In this document: positions 19,948 through 44,667 of the stretch, piece by piece
Numbering within the stretch: the first letter of the stretch is position 1
How the letters are laid out: the number at the start of each line of letters is the position of its first letter
Translations under genes and position numbers: made by a program
Notes under the pieces: model-generated
The model's input: the letters and a program-made list of their open reading frames with translations, nothing else
The model's database searches: none
What the model was told of the DNA's origin: nothing
Assembly: GCF_004339575.1 (NCBI RefSeq)
Contig: NZ_SMFV01000002.1
Coordinates: 1 to 64,000 of the forward strand
Direction: 5' to 3'
From: Phorcysia thermohydrogeniphila
GTDB lineage: Bacteria > Aquificota > Aquificia > Desulfurobacteriales > Desulfurobacteriaceae
Length of the DNA: 64,000 bases

Positions 19948-19975
19948 GGGGCAGGCCCAGCCTGCCCTGTTCTAC
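19948..19975 (+). terminator. Hairpin after bpsA
   Basis: GGGCAGG (19949-19955) and CCTGCCC (19961-19967) form a perfect 7-bp stem with a CCCAG loop just after the bpsA stop. The following TGTTCT is only weakly T-rich. It lies between convergent bpsA and the nuclease gene. Confidence 0.55.
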
Positions 19976-20667
19976 TAATATCTACATAGCCTTTCGCAGG
20001 GGATGCCATCTCCGTCTCCATCCAACCGCGTTAAGCCGCAAACTTTGAAGTAGAACATAGCTTCTTCACAGGAGTTCATCTGAAAACAATACTTCTTTTC
20101 ACCACATGTAAAATCTTCGCCGATTGGAGTCTCTTCTCTACTATCTTCCCAGAGTCCCCTTTGGTTTTCTACGGCGTACTTGAAAGCTTCTCTCAGTTCT
20201 TCTTCATACTCCGGCTCTAATGGATATTGAGTGAGTAAGTAGGCATAACCGTCTTCTAACATTGCTTTATTGATGAATTCTCCATCTGGCGTGAAGACAT
20301 AGGCTAAAATCCTTCCGTAACGGTCCCTGTGTTTTGTTTGGGCGTTGTTTTCATCGTAAACTAAACACACTTCTTCGTAGTCTGCAAGGAGTTCCTTCAG
20401 GTGTTTTCTCGCTTCCTTTCCAAGCTTGACTATGGTTTCCACGTCTAAGTGGTTTTTCCTTGCCTGATAGTAGGCCCTACGATTTTTTCTACTCTCCGGA
20501 GTGTCTATGCCCAAAAGCCTTACGGAGGTTCTCTTTCCGTTGAATAGTATTTTTATTGTGTCCCCATCAATAACGTAGAGGAACTTGTAGCACTCCTCGG
20601 CGTAAGAAGTAAGAGTTAGAAAAATGCTCATGAGGAGTACAGTGATACTTCTGACTACACCTTTCAT
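19975..20667 (-). CDS. Secreted thermonuclease-like protein with Excalibur domain
   Basis: 230 residues. A signal peptide is visible at 1-23 (hydrophobic VLLMSIFLTLTSYA). Staphylococcal-nuclease fold motifs follow: VIDGDTIKI (33-41), VRLLGIDTPES with the arginine at about 50, and HRDRYGRILAYV. The C-terminal 45 residues contain several cysteines and an Excalibur calcium-binding motif, DGDGDGIPCE. It probably degrades DNA outside the cytoplasm with Ca2+. It stands alone, convergent with bpsA, and starts behind a strong AAAAGGAGGGG site. Confidence 0.9.
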   Translation of the reverse strand: MKGVVRSITVLLMSIFLTLTSYAEECYKFLYVIDGDTIKILFNGKRTSVRLLGIDTPESRKNRRAYYQARKNHLDVETIVKLGKEARKHLKELLADYEEVCLVYDENNAQTKHRDRYGRILAYVFTPDGEFINKAMLEDGYAYLLTQYPLEPEYEEELREAFKYAVENQRGLWEDSREETPIGEDFTCGEKKYCFQMNSCEEAMFYFKVCGLTRLDGDGDGIPCERLCRY

Positions 20668-35355: not shown

Positions 35356-36533
35356 CTTTCCTTCTCTAACTTTAAAGGTATCTTCATTACAAATTTAGCT
35401 CCCCCTAAGGGACTACGCTCAACCTGTATTGTTCCTTTGTTTTCAATTACAAACCTTTTAACTATCGGCAGTCCGAGCCCAGACCCTTTGGGGTTATTTG
35501 AGTAGAAGGGTTCAAATATCCTCTCCTTCTCTTCCTCTTTAACTCCGGGGCCGTCGTCCTCAACGGAAATTTCAACAGTTTCTCCCACTTTCTTACACGA
35601 GACAGCCACCTTAGACTCTGCCCACTGAAAGGCGTTCCTTATCAGGTTCTCAATGGCAGAGCGAAAGGCCCTTTCGTCGGTTTCTATCTCTACATCCTCT
35701 AAGTTGAGGGTGTATTCCTTACTTTCTCCCAAGTTCTGGATGATTTCTCTTATGATGGAGGGAAGGGATACTTTACGCTTTTCAGAAGAAATCGGCCTAG
35801 CAAGTGTTAAAAAGTCCCTTACTATTCCGTCAAGGCGTTCAGTCTCGCTGTGGATAATCTCAAGTAATCTCGGGGTTACCTTTCCTTCTTTTAGGAGCTC
35901 CACAGCTCCCTTGAGTGACGCTAATGGATTCTTAAGCTCATGGGCTAAGTCTGCACTTATCTCGTAGAGTCTCTTATAAACTCTGTTCTGCTCTCTCTCT
36001 TTCTCTAAGGAGGCTATGTACTCCTCCTGAGCTTCAAGCTTTTTTTTGAGCCTTTGGCCTGCAAGCATCATTGCGATTAGTGCAATACTTATGAGGAGGG
36101 ACTGTATTGCAGACTCTACGAATCCCCCGTCTTTTTCGCCCGTTAAAAGGTAGCCAAAGTTAAAAAGGAGGGCAAGGGCTGTTGTGGTGTAGCTTCCCTT
36201 CCTGCTCAGCGTTAAGGAGGAAAAGAAAACGGGAAACATCAGAAAGATTGAGAAGAAGCTGTAGCTAAAGATTTTGTCAAGTACCAAAACGAATATGAAT
36301 AGCTCATCAAGTATAAACTCAAAGAGGTGGGGAGCTCTTGAGAGGAATAGGAGGGCAAGGCTTACAACCAGAAAGATGGCTAAAATCGTAATTGAGTTTT
36401 CGGGGAAGGGAAGCTTGTCAAAGGAGTAAAGGGAGAGGAAAAGGAAGAAGAGACCGGCTGAGAAGGCGAACCTTCCCACCCGGTAAACAAGGTAGAACTT
36501 GTCTGTAAAGGAGCTCCTTCCTTTAGTGCTCAC
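35352..36533 (-). CDS. Membrane sensor histidine kinase
   Basis: 393 residues from a GTG that overlaps the purL end. About six transmembrane segments fill the first 165 residues, with no large periplasmic sensor domain, similar to PilS-type kinases. A short coiled coil leads to the H-box [20 protein letters not shown]. ATPase N, G1 and G2 boxes are seen in [20 protein letters not shown] and [11 protein letters not shown]. It should phosphorylate the NtrC-type regulator downstream. The signal is unknown. Confidence 0.93.
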
Positions 36534-38751
36534 CTGAAAGTTTCTTCTCTAAGGAGGTTTCGTAGATTTCCTTACACTCCTTGATTGGCAGGTTCACCAC
36601 CTCTTTACCCTTATGTCTTATCACTCCCCTGCCTGTATCCGTAACCTTTCCTATGACCTTTGCAGGAACTGTTTTCTTCTCAAAGAATTCAAGGACTTCG
36701 GTAAGTTTTTCAGGGGATACTGTTATTACAATCCTGCTCTGCTCCTCTCCAAAGAGTAAGAAGTCTGTGCGTAAATCCTCGTCAAACTCAACCTCAAATC
36801 CGAGTTCCTTTTCAAAGGCAGACTCAAAGAGGTTAATAGCAATTCCTCCTTCAGATACGTCGTGGGCACTCTTTACAAGCCCTTTCTCTATAGCTTCCAC
36901 TATGGCGTCCTGTAGGGTCTTCTCAAACCTGAGGTCTATCGTCTGTCCCCTTCCCTTAAACTCTCCCTCTACGAGCTTCTGGTACTCAGAGCCGGATATG
37001 TTACCTGTGTTCTCTCCAAGGAGAACTATTACGTCGCCTGCTTCTTTAAAGAAGGAGGTCATCCTCTTTTCAACGTCTTCAAGGACTCCAACGCAGACGA
37101 CCGTCGGTGTTGGGAAGACAGCTCGCTTGCCGTTTTCTGTTGCAGTCTCGTTGTAGAAGCTAACGTTTCCGCTTACCACCGGTGTCTCAAGAACCTTACA
37201 GGCGTCTGCCATTCCATCTGTTACCTTTACAAACTGCCACATAATTTCTGGGTCTTCAGGGCTTGCAAAGTTCAGACAGTCGGTTATTGCCCTTGGTTTC
37301 GCTCCACTGCAGGCGACGTTCCTTGCCGCCTCTGCAACGGCGATTTTTCCTCCCTCGTAGGGGTTGAGGTAGCAGTAGCGGGAGTTACAGTCTGAGCTTA
37401 TGGCTATTCCCTTCTTGCTCTCCTTAATCCTTAAAACTGCAGCGTCAGAGCCGGGGTAAACTGTGGTGTTTATCTGAACCATGTGGTCATACTGCCTGTA
37501 AATCCAGCGCTTGCTTGCAATTGTCGGGGAGTCAAGGAGCTTCTTTACTATCTCGTTGTAGTCCTTTGGCTCGGGGAGGTTGTTCTGGTCGTAGGAGGCG
37601 TTCTTAAGTATGTATGCCGGAACTTTGAATGGACGGTAGTAAACTGGAGCTTCCTCTGTGAGGGCTTTTACGGGGAGCTCTGCAACTTTTTCGCCGTGCC
37701 AGAAGAGCCTTAAAACGGGCTCTTCTATGATTTCTCCAATTACGCAGGCGTCAAGCTCCCACCTTCTAAATACCTCAATTATCTCCTCTTCCTTTCCTTT
37801 CTCACAGACTACGAGCATCCTCTCCTGAGACTCTGAAAGCATTATCTCGTAGGGAGTCATCCCCTCTTCTCTTGTGGGGACTTTGTCAAGGTAGAGGACT
37901 ACTCCAACTCCACCGCGGGAGGCCATCTCAACAGAGGAGGAGGTTAGTCCTGCCGCTCCCATGTCCTGAATGGCGACAATTCCGTCCTTCTCCATCGCCT
38001 CAAGGCAGGCCTCTATGAGAAGCTTCTCCATAAACGGGTCGCCAACCTGAACGTTTACCTTCTTTTCAACTTCCTCCTCAGAGGAAAACTCCTCAGAGGC
38101 CATCGTAGCGCCGTGAATTCCGTCCCTTCCCGTTTTTGCTCCAACGTATATAACGGAGTTTCCAACGCCGGTAGCCCTTGCGTAGAAAATCTTTTCCTTC
38201 TTTACGATTCCAAGGGCAAAGGCGTTAACAAGGGGGTTTGTCTGGTAGCAGGAATCAAAGTAAACCTCTCCTCCAACCGTTGGAACGCCTACACAGTTTC
38301 CGTAGTGGCTTATTCCGGAAACGACTCCCTTAACGATGTAGCGCATACGGGGGTCGTGGAGCTCTCCAAACCTCAAAGAGTCCATACAGGCAATTGGCCT
38401 TGCGCCCATTGTAAAGATGTCCCTTAAGATACCACCAACTCCCGTAGCTGCTCCGTGGAAGGGCTCTATAAAGGATGGGTGGTTGTGGGACTCCACCTTA
38501 AAGGCTGCACATATGCCCTTTTCCTCGTCAACCATTATTATTCCGGCGTTCTCGCCGGGTCCCTGAACAACCCACGGTGCACTTGTCGGGAACTTTTTAA
38601 GGTGGGGACGGGAGGACTTGTAGGAGCAGTGCTCAGACCACATAGCAGAGAAAATTCCAAGTTCAACTAAATTTGGCTCTCTCCCAAGAAGCTTAAGGAT
38701 TCTTTCGTATTCTTCCATCGTAACGTGCTGTTCAATGATTTCCCTGTCCAT
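36523..38751 (-). CDS. purL: Phosphoribosylformylglycinamidine synthase subunit PurL
   Basis: 742 residues, the small (three-protein) type, which works with PurS and PurQ that are not in this window. Motifs: [20 protein letters not shown] at the start, [24 protein letters not shown], and the late [16 protein letters not shown]. It forms FGAM in purine synthesis with ATP and glutamine-derived ammonia. It is divergent from the RADAR-like operon. The regulator kinase starts inside its last codons. Confidence 0.97.
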
Positions 38752-38854
38752 GCTCTTCTCCCTAAGTCAAAAAGGAGTTTTGTCCAAATTATAACCTGTA
38801 GGGGGAAATGGTAGAATAAGAAAAATTTTCCCAAGAATGCTAAGGGGGAACTTT
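38752..38854. promoter_or_regulatory. Divergent promoter region between purL and the RADAR-like operon
   Basis: 103 bases. On the minus strand TATAAT lies at about 38798-38793, a good -10 for purL with a poor -35 (TTCTAC) 17 bases upstream. On the plus strand TAGAAT at 38811-38816 could be a -10 for the ATPase gene, but no convincing -35 is seen. I see no operator dyad. Confidence 0.45.
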
Positions 38855-41521
38855 ATGGAAAGAGTAATTGACTTAACAATAGAGGGAGCTCACAGCTTGG
38901 GGGAAAGGTGGAGGGAGAGAGCCCTCGGTGATGTAGTAGAAGAGGCTTTGAATAAACTTGTAGACATTGTTTCTGTTAGAGGAAACAGTGAAGGATATAC
39001 GCCTAATAACCTTTTTATAGACGGAAGAAGGGGGAGTGGAAAGACAACAGTATTGCTTACGATAAAGGAGATTCTCTCAAAAGTTTCAGAATACGAGGGT
39101 ATTCCTGAAAAGTTAAAAGAGCTTCACTTTGAAATTATAGACGATGTTCTTGATACTTCGGTAAATACGATGAGCATCACTTTTTACTTTCTCGGTTGGT
39201 TAAAGGAAAGAATAGAAAAAGAATTCTCTTGTGAGAAAGAACTTTTGGAGTATTTGTATGAGGCGATTAAATACTTTCCTTCTTACTTAAAAAGGTGTAA
39301 TGGTAACTGCGATGAAATAAAAGAGGAGGAAAATCTTGAGGAACGGCTTGATAGAAGTGATTTAAAGTTTAGGAAAAAACTTTACAAGTTGATAGATGAA
39401 TATTGCAAGGTTTTGGAGAGGAAAAAGACTTTTATAGTCCTTTTCCTTGATGACCTTGATATAAGCTTTCCCCTTGAAAGGCTTCAGCGTATTTTAACTG
39501 AAATTTACATGTTTTTAAGTCATCCCAAACTTATTGTTGTGGCTGCAGGTAATTATTCAAACTTAACCGATGCTGTAGAAAAGTGGATTCAGGTTCAGAG
39601 GAAAGAAACTGAAGAAAATAACAATGACCAGAAAAATAGTAGAAAAGATGTAGCTAAATCGTTTTTAGAAAAGACTTTTGCCGTTCATTCAGTTCATATA
39701 CCCGAAATTTCTTATGAACTTGTAAGAGATTACCTAAAAGTTAAGTGGCAACCGGGAGAGAGCTCTCCAGAAGTTTCTGTTAAAAGCTTTTTAGAAGCTC
39801 TACCTATAATTCGTTTGCTGTCGTTGGACTCTTTGCCCTTTAGGATTCTCTTTAATGGACTTACTATGAGAGAACTTATTCTTATCCTGAAAGAGGTTAA
39901 AAAGAAAATAGAAAACTATTGTGAATTTAGGGACGGAAGATTTGTGTTCAATGATAACCTTCTAAAAGTACGTATAATAGATTTATGTTTTAGCGACATA
40001 TATCAGAAAGTTAAAAAGGTAAAAGTCGCTATTTCCTTTGAAGGTAGATATTATTTTAAGGCTGATGATTTAGGGAAACCCTCAGAAGTAGAAACATTAA
40101 TGCTCCGTTTGAAGGAAGCGGTAGAGAAAGGAAAGTTGCCTGAATTTCTATATGACGAAGGAAGACAATCTACCCTACCGTTAATTCTTGGTATAGAGGG
40201 AAAAAAGAAAGTAGGGGCTCTTTTCTGGGTTTGGTTCAATGAAAACATATTCTTTATGGATGGTCTTATGAGGAATTTCCCTCGTTTAGTATTATGGGAA
40301 TTTTTGGTTAAAAATATTCTTAGAAACAAACATACAAATAAAGGGAGATTTATAAAACAGAAGGATAATGAAAAAGAGATTTTGTCTTTTTATAATATGT
40401 GGAGAAGTCTGAATTTTGATCTGGATATTTTTGCCGATGAATATTTTGAACTTTACGAATTTTTAGTGGGTTCGGAAGAAATTCTAAGAGTTAATTTGCC
40501 GAATATACATAGAGAAAATGTTTTTTCTCCTTTAGAATCTGAGGAAATGATTATCATTAAGGCTGGTAATGAGTACCTTTCATTAGAAAAGATACTCTTC
40601 TCCTTCGCTGAAATTAAACTACCTATATGCTATGTTACTTTGTCTCTGATATATCTCTCGGACACTCCAGTCTCTCTAAAATTTTTGGAAGTGGAGAAGA
40701 CTCTGGCTAATTTTTGGGATAAACTAATGGAAGCCTTGAGAGAGTTAAAGTTTCCTAATCCTTTTATATCTCCTTCTTCGGGAATAGCAAAGTTGTTAGC
40801 TTTTGAGCTTATTTATTTGAATCTTTGGTATCGTCTTCTTTATCTGCCAAGAATTACTGAATATGGTATGCCAAAAAAATTTTTCAGAAGTTTTGTAATT
40901 AGCAAGGAAGAAGATTTACCAAAAGATAGAGTGTTATTAATAAGAGAAGAGCTTTATAACTTAAAGAAAATATTAAACTGTAAAGGAGAGCGTTTGAAAA
41001 TAAGAGAAGTTAAACGACGTTTTGAGGAAATTTTAGATGAAATTGGTGATAAACGGATACGGGAGATATTTCAGTTTGTTTGGAGAGAAATAGAGGAGGA
41101 AGATATCTCAGAAACCGCCTATATTTGTGGAGAGAGGAAGAAGGAAATAAAGGAAAGGATAAGAAATAGTCTCTTGATTTTTCTTTCTAATCTTGAAACT
41201 TGGATTGGCGAGAAATTTAGAGATCAAGTAGTTCAGAGATTTCCTTTTTGGATAGCTCCTTCTCCTATTTTGAAAATTCTTAGAGAAGAATTGAGTGGAG
41301 AGGAAAGGGTCAGTTGGATGATATACAGGGAAGCTTTTAAAGCTCCTTTAATACGGGCTGTTCTATACGATGGATTGGACAATCCTGATGAATACCTCAA
41401 GAAGCTCTTTAAAGATAAATGGAAAGAAGTAAAAGATGGTATAGAGAAGGATTTAGAAATCCTAAGAAAGAGAAGTGGTCTAAAAGAGGAAGGTGGTGGA
41501 GACCAAGAGGCTTCTTCTTGA
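38855..41521 (+). CDS. rdrA: RADAR-type ATPase, RdrA-like
   Basis: 888 residues from the ATG at 38855, chosen because AAGGGGGAA stands 7 bases before it; the ATG at 38837 lacks a site. A P-loop is at 57-65 (GRRGSGKTT). Walker B is IVLFLDDLDIS with D199/D200, and a sensor-like VVAAGNYSN (N233) follows. The long C-terminal part is helical and has no motif I recognise. Size, ATPase position and the neighbouring deaminase match RdrA of RADAR, which assembles into rings and with RdrB protects cells from phage. The gene is strongly AT-rich (for example 18 of 60 bases are G/C at 40381-40440). It overlaps the next gene by 26-29 bases. Confidence 0.8.
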   Translation: MERVIDLTIEGAHSLGERWRERALGDVVEEALNKLVDIVSVRGNSEGYTPNNLFIDGRRGSGKTTVLLTIKEILSKVSEYEGIPEKLKELHFEIIDDVLDTSVNTMSITFYFLGWLKERIEKEFSCEKELLEYLYEAIKYFPSYLKRCNGNCDEIKEEENLEERLDRSDLKFRKKLYKLIDEYCKVLERKKTFIVLFLDDLDISFPLERLQRILTEIYMFLSHPKLIVVAAGNYSNLTDAVEKWIQVQRKETEENNNDQKNSRKDVAKSFLEKTFAVHSVHIPEISYELVRDYLKVKWQPGESSPEVSVKSFLEALPIIRLLSLDSLPFRILFNGLTMRELILILKEVKKKIENYCEFRDGRFVFNDNLLKVRIIDLCFSDIYQKVKKVKVAISFEGRYYFKADDLGKPSEVETLMLRLKEAVEKGKLPEFLYDEGRQSTLPLILGIEGKKKVGALFWVWFNENIFFMDGLMRNFPRLVLWEFLVKNILRNKHTNKGRFIKQKDNEKEILSFYNMWRSLNFDLDIFADEYFELYEFLVGSEEILRVNLPNIHRENVFSPLESEEMIIIKAGNEYLSLEKILFSFAEIKLPICYVTLSLIYLSDTPVSLKFLEVEKTLANFWDKLMEALRELKFPNPFISPSSGIAKLLAFELIYLNLWYRLLYLPRITEYGMPKKFFRSFVISKEEDLPKDRVLLIREELYNLKKILNCKGERLKIREVKRRFEEILDEIGDKRIREIFQFVWREIEEEDISETAYICGERKKEIKERIRNSLLIFLSNLETWIGEKFRDQVVQRFPFWIAPSPILKILREELSGEERVSWMIYREAFKAPLIRAVLYDGLDNPDEYLKKLFKDKWKEVKDGIEKDLEILRKRSGLKEEGGGDQEASS

Positions 41522-43856
41522 GCCTTATTTGACACTTTGGAGTAGTATAGAAACTTTCAACAAAATAGTTAGGTTCTGGAACGTTAGGAATAGGGAGGTT
41601 GTTGAGTCTTTAAAGAAAGAGCTCCACAGAACCCTTTTCAATCACCCTACCTTTTATGGAGAGCTCCACTACTACATTTCAGACCTTTTTACCCACCTCT
41701 GGGAGGATAAGAAAACAGTCCTTGACTGCTACAGGGACGCTTTAAAACAGATAGTAGAGCTCCTCTTTGACGGCTATAAAATTCGGGACTTACAGTTCTT
41801 TAAAATTGCTACCTCTTCTGTTGTTAAGGAGCTCCCTATCTTTGCCTTTCACAAATTAAAAGGACTTCCCTGTCCCGAAAGGATAAAGATAGAACACTAC
41901 TGCGACGTTCCCTACTACGTTGATGACCTCAAAGAGCTCCACCTTCACGCCGGCCTTGCCTACAGGTTCTCAGACGTTATAGACTTTGTCGTAAGGAGGC
42001 TTCACTTCTTTATAAGAAAGTGGCAGAGGAAGGTAGAAAAAAGGGTCATTTCCTTACTTAAACTCCTTGCTAACTCTTATGCCGTTCTTGAGAGGAAGTC
42101 TTTACTGGAAAAAAAGCTTAGACCTCAGGGAGACTGTTCCTGTAATGAAGAAAATAAAGAGGAAAACTGTCGGGATAAGGAAAAGAGAATTGAGGAGATA
42201 AACTTTTTTGCTCTTCTGTGTCATCAACTCTGGGCTTTTGAAAAATCCCTTCCGATTCCTCTTTATTTAGACTACTTAAAGGATTTTTCCTTTGAGAAAA
42301 CGCTTTTTAAGGCTGTCTCCTGTCTCTTTGATGAAGACGCGAAAGATGAGGAGGTTTTAGCAAGTCTTATATTCATAATCTCTCTAAACGAGCTCTACAC
42401 CTTAAACATTCACGATAGGTTTTATAGAGGTCTTGACTACTTTTCTGACAAGTTCATTAAAGGAAACCCCTTTGTCTACGGTGTTCGTGTTTTTGACGGT
42501 TCTTACAGGTTTTCTGACTTTGCAGATGAGGTTTATAAGAAGTTCTTTTTTGAACAGGATAAACTTTCTTCTGTTGAACTGAGAATGTATCCACGCTGGA
42601 AGTCTTTAGTTGAGTGGAAGAAGAGTATAGACTCATGGAAAGAGGAATATGCAAAGAAAGAGTTTGGAATCATTTTCCACTTTGGGAAAATGCAAAGCTC
42701 TAAGGATTTTGAAAATCTTTCCAAGTTCCGTAGGAAGGTTTATAGGGAGTCTAAGGAGCTTGCGAACTTCTTAAGGGCTAACGGAGAGTACGTTTCTCTC
42801 CTTGTAGGAATAGACTGTGCCTCTCAGGAGTACTGGACTCCCCCGTGGGTATTTGCTCCCCTTTTCTCCTTCTGGAAGAAGAAGGCTCACCACTACATAC
42901 CGGCTCTTAAGGAACTTTCCCATCCTCATCTAAAGTTTACCTACCACGCCGGAGAGGACTTTGTTGACCTTGCAACAGGTTTAAAGAACGTTTACGAGGC
43001 TGTAAAGTTTTTGGAGCTCCAAAGTGGCGACCGGATTGGTCACGGTCTCGTTTTAGGGCTTGACGTTGAGAGCTACTCTTTAAAGCACAGACAGATAAAA
43101 ATTTCTCCCCTCTATTATTTCTTCCACCTCCTCTGGTTAAACTACATGACTTATAAACATCCGGAACTTTCCCACTACGGTGAAAGGGTTTTAAGGGAGC
43201 TCTTCAGGCTGAAGGAGCTGTCTTTTCTCTCAGAGGTTTTTAAGACTACGTTTAAGGAGCGTTTAAACGCTTGGGATTTTCGCCTCTTCTTGGTTAACCT
43301 TTACGAGTCCTTAAAGTTTGAGTTCGTCCTTCATGGGGATACTTCCCTTCACGGAAGGCTGTGGAAGGAAAGTGGGGAATCTGGCAGGGAGGAGTTTAAA
43401 GTCTGCCATACCTTTTTGATGAGGCTCTTTAGGGAGTATGGAAAGTTTAAAAGGTTAATGAAAGAGAAATTTTCCCTTGACCCTCTTCTTGATAGAGGAG
43501 CAGACTTTACTTTTGAGGAACAGTTGGAGTTTTTGAAGAAGATTCAGGAAGTTACTCTCGGCCTTGTGGTTAAGAGAGGTATCGTTGTGGAGGCCTGTCC
43601 CTCTTCAAACCTCTACATAAGGGGACTTGTGGACTACAAGGAGCACTTAGTAGTTAGGTTAAAGGAGCTTATTAAGAAGATGGAGCTCCGAGTTTCCCTT
43701 AACACCGACAACCCACTCATTTTTGATACTACTATCTTGGAGGAGTACCTTCTCGTAAACGAAGCTCTACCGGAAGAGGATAGGGAGGGGGTAATAAGAG
43801 CTCTTTGTAGGAACGCCACAGATTTCGGTTTTGCCGGAAGGAAGAGGGTTGGGTAG
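41493..43856 (+). CDS. rdrB: RADAR-type adenosine deaminase, RdrB-like
   Basis: 787 residues from a GTG at 41493; the next GTG, 41496, is equally possible behind AGAGGA. The deaminase metal and catalytic set is complete: H150-L-H152, H485-A-G-E488-D, R514-I-G-H517-G, and D739 in LNTDNP. ACPSSNLYI at 701-709 is also typical. A very long insertion (about 155-440) separates the first and second motifs, including a Cys-rich patch (C215, C217, C226). This architecture fits RdrB, which forms large shells and deaminates adenosine-containing substrates (reported as RNA or ATP/dATP). It is far longer than a metabolic adenosine deaminase (about 340 residues). Codon use is close to the host's, unlike rdrA. 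Confidence 0.85.
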   Translation: MVETKRLLLEPYLTLWSSIETFNKIVRFWNVRNREVVESLKKELHRTLFNHPTFYGELHYYISDLFTHLWEDKKTVLDCYRDALKQIVELLFDGYKIRDLQFFKIATSSVVKELPIFAFHKLKGLPCPERIKIEHYCDVPYYVDDLKELHLHAGLAYRFSDVIDFVVRRLHFFIRKWQRKVEKRVISLLKLLANSYAVLERKSLLEKKLRPQGDCSCNEENKEENCRDKEKRIEEINFFALLCHQLWAFEKSLPIPLYLDYLKDFSFEKTLFKAVSCLFDEDAKDEEVLASLIFIISLNELYTLNIHDRFYRGLDYFSDKFIKGNPFVYGVRVFDGSYRFSDFADEVYKKFFFEQDKLSSVELRMYPRWKSLVEWKKSIDSWKEEYAKKEFGIIFHFGKMQSSKDFENLSKFRRKVYRESKELANFLRANGEYVSLLVGIDCASQEYWTPPWVFAPLFSFWKKKAHHYIPALKELSHPHLKFTYHAGEDFVDLATGLKNVYEAVKFLELQSGDRIGHGLVLGLDVESYSLKHRQIKISPLYYFFHLLWLNYMTYKHPELSHYGERVLRELFRLKELSFLSEVFKTTFKERLNAWDFRLFLVNLYESLKFEFVLHGDTSLHGRLWKESGESGREEFKVCHTFLMRLFREYGKFKRLMKEKFSLDPLLDRGADFTFEEQLEFLKKIQEVTLGLVVKRGIVVEACPSSNLYIRGLVDYKEHLVVRLKELIKKMELRVSLNTDNPLIFDTTILEEYLLVNEALPEEDREGVIRALCRNATDFGFAGRKRVG

Positions 43857-43872
43857 AACCTTGATATTGATT

Positions 43873-43903
43873 TTGAAAAGCGTAACTTTTGTTCACGTAT
43901 AAT
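43873..43903 (+). promoter_or_regulatory. Promoter of the CxxC mini-protein operon
   Basis: TTGAAA (43873-43878) and TATAAT (43898-43903) with a 19-base spacer. It lies just after the RdrB-like stop and before the next genes, suggesting those genes are not part of the RADAR-like transcript. Confidence 0.55.
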
Positions 43904-43942
43904 TATAGCAGTCCTAAAGCTTTGGGTCTTGAGAGGTTTGTT

Positions 43943-44146
43943 TTGAAAAAGCCAGAACTTTCAATGACACTGAGAGAATGTCTTTCGGAGTTTCCCCAGC
44001 TTGAAGAGACAATCTACTCGCTAATTGAAGAATGTGTTTACTGTGAGGGATTTAAGGACGAGACTCTTGAGGAGGTCTTTAAAGCCCACAAGCTTGACCC
44101 TGAAAAGGCTCTAAAGAAACTCCTTAAAGCACTTGAGGAGGAGTGA
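43943..44146 (+). CDS. Small CxxC protein, DUF1858-like
   Basis: 67 residues from the TTG at 43943, which has GAGAGG 6 bases upstream; the longer frame from 43889 would begin over the -10 box. It contains SMTLRECLSEFPQLEETIYSL and a CVYC pair at about residues 36-39, in the style of DUF1858 redox or metal-binding domains. Function unknown. Its stop overlaps the DUF2148 gene start, so the two are coupled. Confidence 0.7.
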   Translation: MKKPELSMTLRECLSEFPQLEETIYSLIEECVYCEGFKDETLEEVFKAHKLDPEKALKKLLKALEEE

Positions 44147-44667
44147 TGGAATTTCCTTACTACGGTGCGGTTAAGACGGTTGCTGAACTTATGTGTTGTA
44201 GCGCCATAACTGCTCCTAAGGGTAAGGGTGTTAACCTTATCTACACTAAGATATTTGAGGGAGAGGAGAAGGATAGGGTAGCCGACCTTATGGAAAAAAT
44301 AGGTAGGGAGAAGGACATTCCTTTTTTTGTTCGTGACGCAAAGAACGTTAGGGATTCTCTGCTCGTCGTTTTTGTAGGGACGGAGGTTAAGCCAAGGGGG
44401 GTTCCTTTCTGTGGCTTCTGTGGGTTTGGGGACTGTGAGGGGTGCTCTAAGGCAGGAGGACACTGCGCCTATGCCGTTGGTGACCTTGGAATAGCCATAG
44501 GTTCAGCTGTAAAGGTTGCCTCTGATAATAACTTGGACAACCGTATTATGTTCTCTTTCGGGAAGGCCGTAATCGTTGGAGGCTTTGTTCCTGAGAGTGT
44601 AAAGCTCGGTTACGGGATTCCCCTTTCTGTCTCCGGTAAGAACATATTCTTTGACAGGAAAAGGTAA
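44146..44667 (+). CDS. DUF2148 ferredoxin-like protein
   Basis: 173 residues from the ATG at 44146 (GTG at 44143 is the alternative). The cysteine-rich core CGFCGFGDCEGCSKAGGHC near 90-108 is the mark of DUF2148, likely an iron-sulfur site. Domains of this kind occur in anaerobes; no reaction is established. It lies between the CxxC mini-protein and corA with 1-base overlaps on both sides. Confidence 0.85.
   Translation: MEFPYYGAVKTVAELMCCSAITAPKGKGVNLIYTKIFEGEEKDRVADLMEKIGREKDIPFFVRDAKNVRDSLLVVFVGTEVKPRGVPFCGFCGFGDCEGCSKAGGHCAYAVGDLGIAIGSAVKVASDNNLDNRIMFSFGKAVIVGGFVPESVKLGYGIPLSVSGKNIFFDRKR

Follow-up and report, generated by a model that had tools for sequence, protein, structure and literature searches.

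Among described prokaryotic defense systems, the locus considered here comes closest to RADAR, in which a heptameric RdrA ATPase docks on a dodecameric shell of the deaminase RdrB, and infection triggers the conversion of ATP and dATP to ITP and dITP, with the A-to-G signal in RNA being minor (PMC9994260). Thus, of the two activities that the original prediction had attributed to RADAR, the deamination of mononucleotides stands, in the form of ATP and dATP, and RNA editing is minor at most. The same work describes the roles of the insertions that distinguish RdrB, and places the accepted RdrAs at a mere 22-25% identity to one another in the ATPase domain (PMC9994260). Loci from Cetobacterium (RdrA-RdrB-VanZ) and Aureibacter (RdrA-RdrB-SLATT) have a membrane protein downstream of the pair. 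A further system sharing the adenosine deaminase (ADA) fold is Cad1 of type III CRISPR, a CARF-fused adenosine deaminase that converts ATP to ITP in immunity (PMC11645235).

We analyzed a stretch of 64,000 nucleotides from Phorcysia thermohydrogeniphila (henceforth the window), which contains a gene pair with the same order and protein sizes as the E. coli and Citrobacter rodentium systems. The host had been predicted to be a thermophile, a prediction supported by its membership in the Desulfurobacteriaceae, a family generally known for growth at high temperature. The relevant features are as follows:

36523..38751, minus strand: purL, the left flank of the insertion site, outside the system
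38855..41521, plus strand: rdrA-like AAA+ ATPase gene, 888 aa (ORF list, alignment, profile-profile comparison, structural model and fold search)
41493..43856, plus strand: rdrB-like adenosine deaminase gene, 787 aa (ORF list, profiles, alignment and fold search)
43889..44667, plus strand: DUF1858 and DUF2148 genes, the right flank, outside the system

The two genes are arranged in tandem, rdrA followed by rdrB, with an overlap of 29 bases, and both predicted reading frames are present in the ORF list at the lengths originally given. We take ATG 38855 as the start of rdrA because it agrees with the start of the homologs; an in-frame ATG further upstream, at 38837, would yield a protein of 894 aa. 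The start codon of rdrB is GTG 41493 or, alternatively, 41496. That such long overlapping frames are kept in separate genomes excludes chance ORFs. Sequence comparisons give us high confidence that the pair is a genuine divergent RADAR, a further member of the known family as opposed to a new type of system. Taken together with the modeled structures, they indicate that this is very probably a two-gene anti-phage system acquired horizontally beside purL in this member of the Desulfurobacteriaceae.

The deaminase provides the strongest signal. All of its motif residues named in the original prediction (H150, H152, H485, E488, H517 and D739) are in place, and 14 other RdrBs have the same residue at each of these positions; when aligned, the zinc ligands H150/H152/H485/H517 and the catalytic E488 correspond to H152/H154/H498/H530 and E501 of the E. 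coli protein. In NCBIfam profile searches the best match is RdrB (NF041744; E 4.3e-34, 118 bits), against 56 bits for ADA, and the PADLOC models likewise put RdrB first (RdrB E 1.5e-23 vs CARF_ADA 3.4e-12); CARF-ADA reaches 44 bits. A sequence search of the PDB retrieved E. coli RdrB (8fnv/8fnw, E 1.7e-16) as the only strong match, the next being at E 0.009, and a profile-profile comparison of four Aquificota RdrBs with five of known type was significant at E 6.5e-38 over 476 columns. The best non-Aquificota BLAST matches include the proteins of the Cetobacterium (E about 1e-26) and Aureibacter (about 1e-21) loci, both of which lie on plasmids. Identity to the E. coli-type RdrBs is about 18-23% in the alignments.

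The layout of the protein points in the same direction. An N-terminal extension and two large insertions occupy the places of RdrB insertions 1-3 and are of E. coli-type sizes; the spacings around the motifs are 149/333/222 in the window protein and 151/344/218 in the E. coli type, as against about 12-27/165-180/57 in ADA. The second of these values, the H152-H485 distance, is 333 residues here, 344 in the E. coli type and 165-180 in two ordinary ADAs, so the net insertion amounts to about 155-170 residues and the roughly 285 proposed earlier was an overestimate. In addition, the H485-H517 spacing is 32 in 15/15 RdrBs examined vs 24-26 in ADA. An AlphaFold2 model built without templates (mean pLDDT 56, ADA core mostly 65-90), to be read with the fact that its thin alignment includes E. 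coli-type RdrBs from viral contigs, has RdrB chains as its best eight PDB fold matches (E 1.4e-10 to 5e-8), those of the E. coli / C. rodentium type among the top ones; ADA (E 0.14), Cad1 (0.47) and ADGF are all at 0.1 or worse. Plain ADA, ADGF, AMP deaminase and Cad1 were thus considered and rejected as identities, since those that appear score well under RdrB in profile, PDB and fold searches alike. Cad1 further differs in its CARF domain and activation by cyclic oligoadenylate. Judged by its sequence and predicted fold, the window deaminase resembles RdrB more than it does ADA, ADGF or Cad1, and the clustering with ADGF or AMP deaminases that would have spoken against RADAR was not seen in these searches. 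One departure from the E. coli type is that the residues of the 3-fold shell interface (EEE 595-597 in E. coli) are not conserved, as is also the case in several of the aligned RdrBs.

The ATPase is more divergent, with 16-17% identity to E. coli-type RdrAs, but shares their Walker A and B motifs and sensor 2. As predicted, the Walker A motif (GRRGSGKTT) lies at 57-65 and the Walker B aspartates at D199/D200; these are joined by N233 at the sensor-1 place and R339, which aligns with sensor 2 of the E. coli protein, R377. Ten columns are invariant over nine RdrAs, including R59, G60, G62, K63, D199, D200, D202, K273 and R339. One-step searches give little: the NCBIfam RdrA model (NF041743) matches the Walker A region at E 2.2e-5 and 23 bits, and phmmer with the single sequence found no match in the PDB, the RdrA of Streptococcus suis included. 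Such weak detection is not unusual for RdrAs, given that the ATPase of the tandem Cetobacterium locus does not match NF041743 at E 0.001 and that accepted members are themselves so dissimilar. Likewise, the window proteins, at 23 and 118 bits, miss the NCBIfam equivalog cut-offs of 600 (RdrA) and 800 (RdrB) bits, which are curation thresholds and not biological features; that tandem pairs of Aureibacter, Rhizobium and Cetobacterium also fall under them indicates that these models are narrow. PADLOC mad8, which matches the P-loop domain alone (E 1.8e-6), was rejected as an identity for the ATPase; it also matches a second, unrelated P-loop ATPase in the window and is hence generic.

More sensitive comparisons single out RdrA. 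A profile of two Aquificota RdrAs matches one of five others at E 2e-13; the alignment of 327 columns starts at the N-terminus and takes in sensor 2. The structural model has a mean pLDDT of 49, with the ATPase core mostly at 60-85, and its alignment includes E. coli-type RdrAs; its best 14 fold matches in the PDB are all RdrA chains (E 1.7e-6 to 4e-4), including those of E. coli and of Streptococcus suis (8fnu; the E. coli-type references being 8fnt/8hr7-8hrb), with Clp ATPases ranking behind them. No unrelated ATPase family thus takes precedence, and on profile-profile and modeled-fold grounds the window ATPase is an RdrA. The model also places four helices, partly of low confidence, at 108-186. 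They follow the early strands and precede the Walker B strand, and in that position may correspond to the RdrA crown, a four-helix insertion after strands 2-3. The C-terminal half (about residues 360-888) is predicted to be alpha-helical, with pLDDT mostly below 50, lies outside the profile-profile alignment and cannot be aligned with the E. coli-type lobe; sequence relatives of it were not found outside its own clade, a lack that the accepted RADARs show among themselves as well.

These properties of the ATPase raise the question of convergence, that is, whether an ADA-type nucleotide deaminase was paired with an unrelated AAA+/STAND ATPase to give a RADAR-like effector of some other defense system that does not descend from RdrAB. 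The weak one-step RdrA signal and the restriction of the alignment to the ATPase domain would fit such an origin, as would the RdrB tree: rooted on two ADAs, it places the root between the Aquificota clade and the remaining RdrBs, making them sisters (moderate support of 88/89, long branches). We nevertheless consider it very unlikely, because both halves of RADAR are matched independently; the RdrB signal is strong and specific, with matching insertions, and the best fold relatives of the adjacent ATPase are RdrAs, E. coli and S. suis included. In the same tree, all four full-length RdrBs of the window type fall into a single clade (support 100/99) apart from the other sampled RdrBs.

The genomic setting favors the gain of a divergent RADAR at this site. 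The survey proposed at the outset revealed 14 family members in which purL adjoins the DUF2148 gene with no RADAR in between; the gap between the two genes, 5,392 bases in the window, is 306-1,004 in 13 of these relatives and 3,547 in the other, G002. Since the gap contents also differ, the most likely origin of rdrAB is a gain at a variable purL junction. The composition, too, suggests acquisition: GC is 34% in rdrA and 42% in rdrB against 45-47% in the flanks, and third-position GC of rdrA is 0.30 against about 0.50-0.57 in the neighbors. The purine biosynthesis gene purL next door, together with the lack of any other Pfam A_deaminase match in the window genome, could instead be taken to mean that a housekeeping adenosine or AMP deaminase acts with an ATPase partner in purine salvage and not in defense. 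This is extremely improbable in view of that composition and of relatives whose purL junction is filled differently and most of which lack the deaminase; moreover, the pairs of G009 and G018 lie in other contexts, away from purL. As separate observations, the clear difference in third-position GC between rdrA (0.30) and rdrB (0.50) might mean that these genes have had separate histories, and the junction (window 38751-43889) holds RADAR here, a DUF1931 gene, which we take to encode a histone-fold protein, in several genera, and nothing in another genus. Most RADAR-free relatives have the DUF1931 gene inside the purL-DUF2148 gap, and the window genome lacks it; in G002 it stands beside a gene for a 776-aa secreted-looking protein (L055:363-2690).

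Across the Aquificota the distribution is rare and patchy, with an RdrB-like match in 7/136 genomes, two of these being fragments (G113 and G097). Tandem rdrAB pairs were also found in G009 and in G018, the latter itself a member of the Desulfurobacteriaceae, and RdrB in G039; in G013 the start of rdrA lies at a contig edge, and G135 carries a second, separate RADAR lineage. Viral contigs yielded no relative with an Aquificota-only alignment and distant RADARs alone with a wider one, and no relative was found among the INPHARED phages. In the metagenome assembly G018, rdrA (L014:10167-12849) has a frameshift near residue 197 that is either real decay or an assembly error. While this shows that one or the other occurs in the group, it is extremely improbable that the window locus is itself a decaying or inactive remnant, as both of its ORFs are full length, with complete catalytic residues and no stops or frameshifts.

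By analogy with the characterized systems, the intact catalytic residues support an ATP/dATP deamination chemistry, and the window system would convert ATP to ITP during infection under the gating of RdrA. The RdrA subunits would form a heptameric AAA+ ring, its crown docked over the active site of RdrB, which would itself form a dodecameric shell. On infection by a phage, RdrA, with its C-terminal lobe as the likely sensor, would switch on the deamination of ATP and dATP, and the resulting ITP and dITP would poison the nucleotide pool and abort the infection. The locus adds a thermophilic, deep-branching lineage to the range of RADAR. It also implies that surveys undercount the system, as current RdrA models miss divergent members. 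The thermophilic proteins could give stable complexes in which to resolve the gating of RdrB by RdrA. The C-terminal lobe of RdrA, which differs strongly, offers a natural test of its proposed role as phage sensor.

In keeping with the original prediction, the window locus has no accessory membrane gene, which sets it apart from the Cetobacterium and Aureibacter loci. The downstream DUF1858, DUF2148 and CorA genes were rejected as accessory candidates: the first two adjoin purL in relatives without rdrAB and so lie outside the system, and CorA is in place in the RADAR-free G002. Homologous multi-TM proteins (29% over 192 aa, BLAST E 3e-11) are encoded just downstream of rdrB in two genomes with different RADAR lineages:

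L014:6657-7630 (G018): multi-TM protein, seemingly split into ORFs of 189 and 102 aa
L051:8426-9265 (G135): multi-TM protein, downstream of rdrB

They have no convincing Pfam or PADLOC match and are candidate accessory components, analogous to the SLATT protein of the Aureibacter locus and the VanZ protein of the Cetobacterium one.

A different association is seen in G039, where an RdrB of the Aquificota clade is followed by sspD, sspF and sspG, head to tail with gaps of 3-4 bases (contig C4, L016:1-7302). The sspD-sspF-sspG genes belong to a DNA phosphorothioation defense. RdrA was not detected at this locus, and the ORF upstream of RdrB, truncated where the contig stops, has no match to the RdrA or Ssp models. 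This arrangement prompts the thought, which we regard as unlikely, that the RADARs of this clade form a distinct subtype, whose RdrA has a sensing lobe of its own and whose RdrB serves as an exchangeable effector; if so, ATP deamination could be wired to another defense trigger. Elsewhere in the window (19975-20667), a 230-aa ORF matches the PADLOC nuclease model C3a212 (SNc+LTD) at E 1.9e-25; this staphylococcal-type nuclease is probably unrelated to defense.
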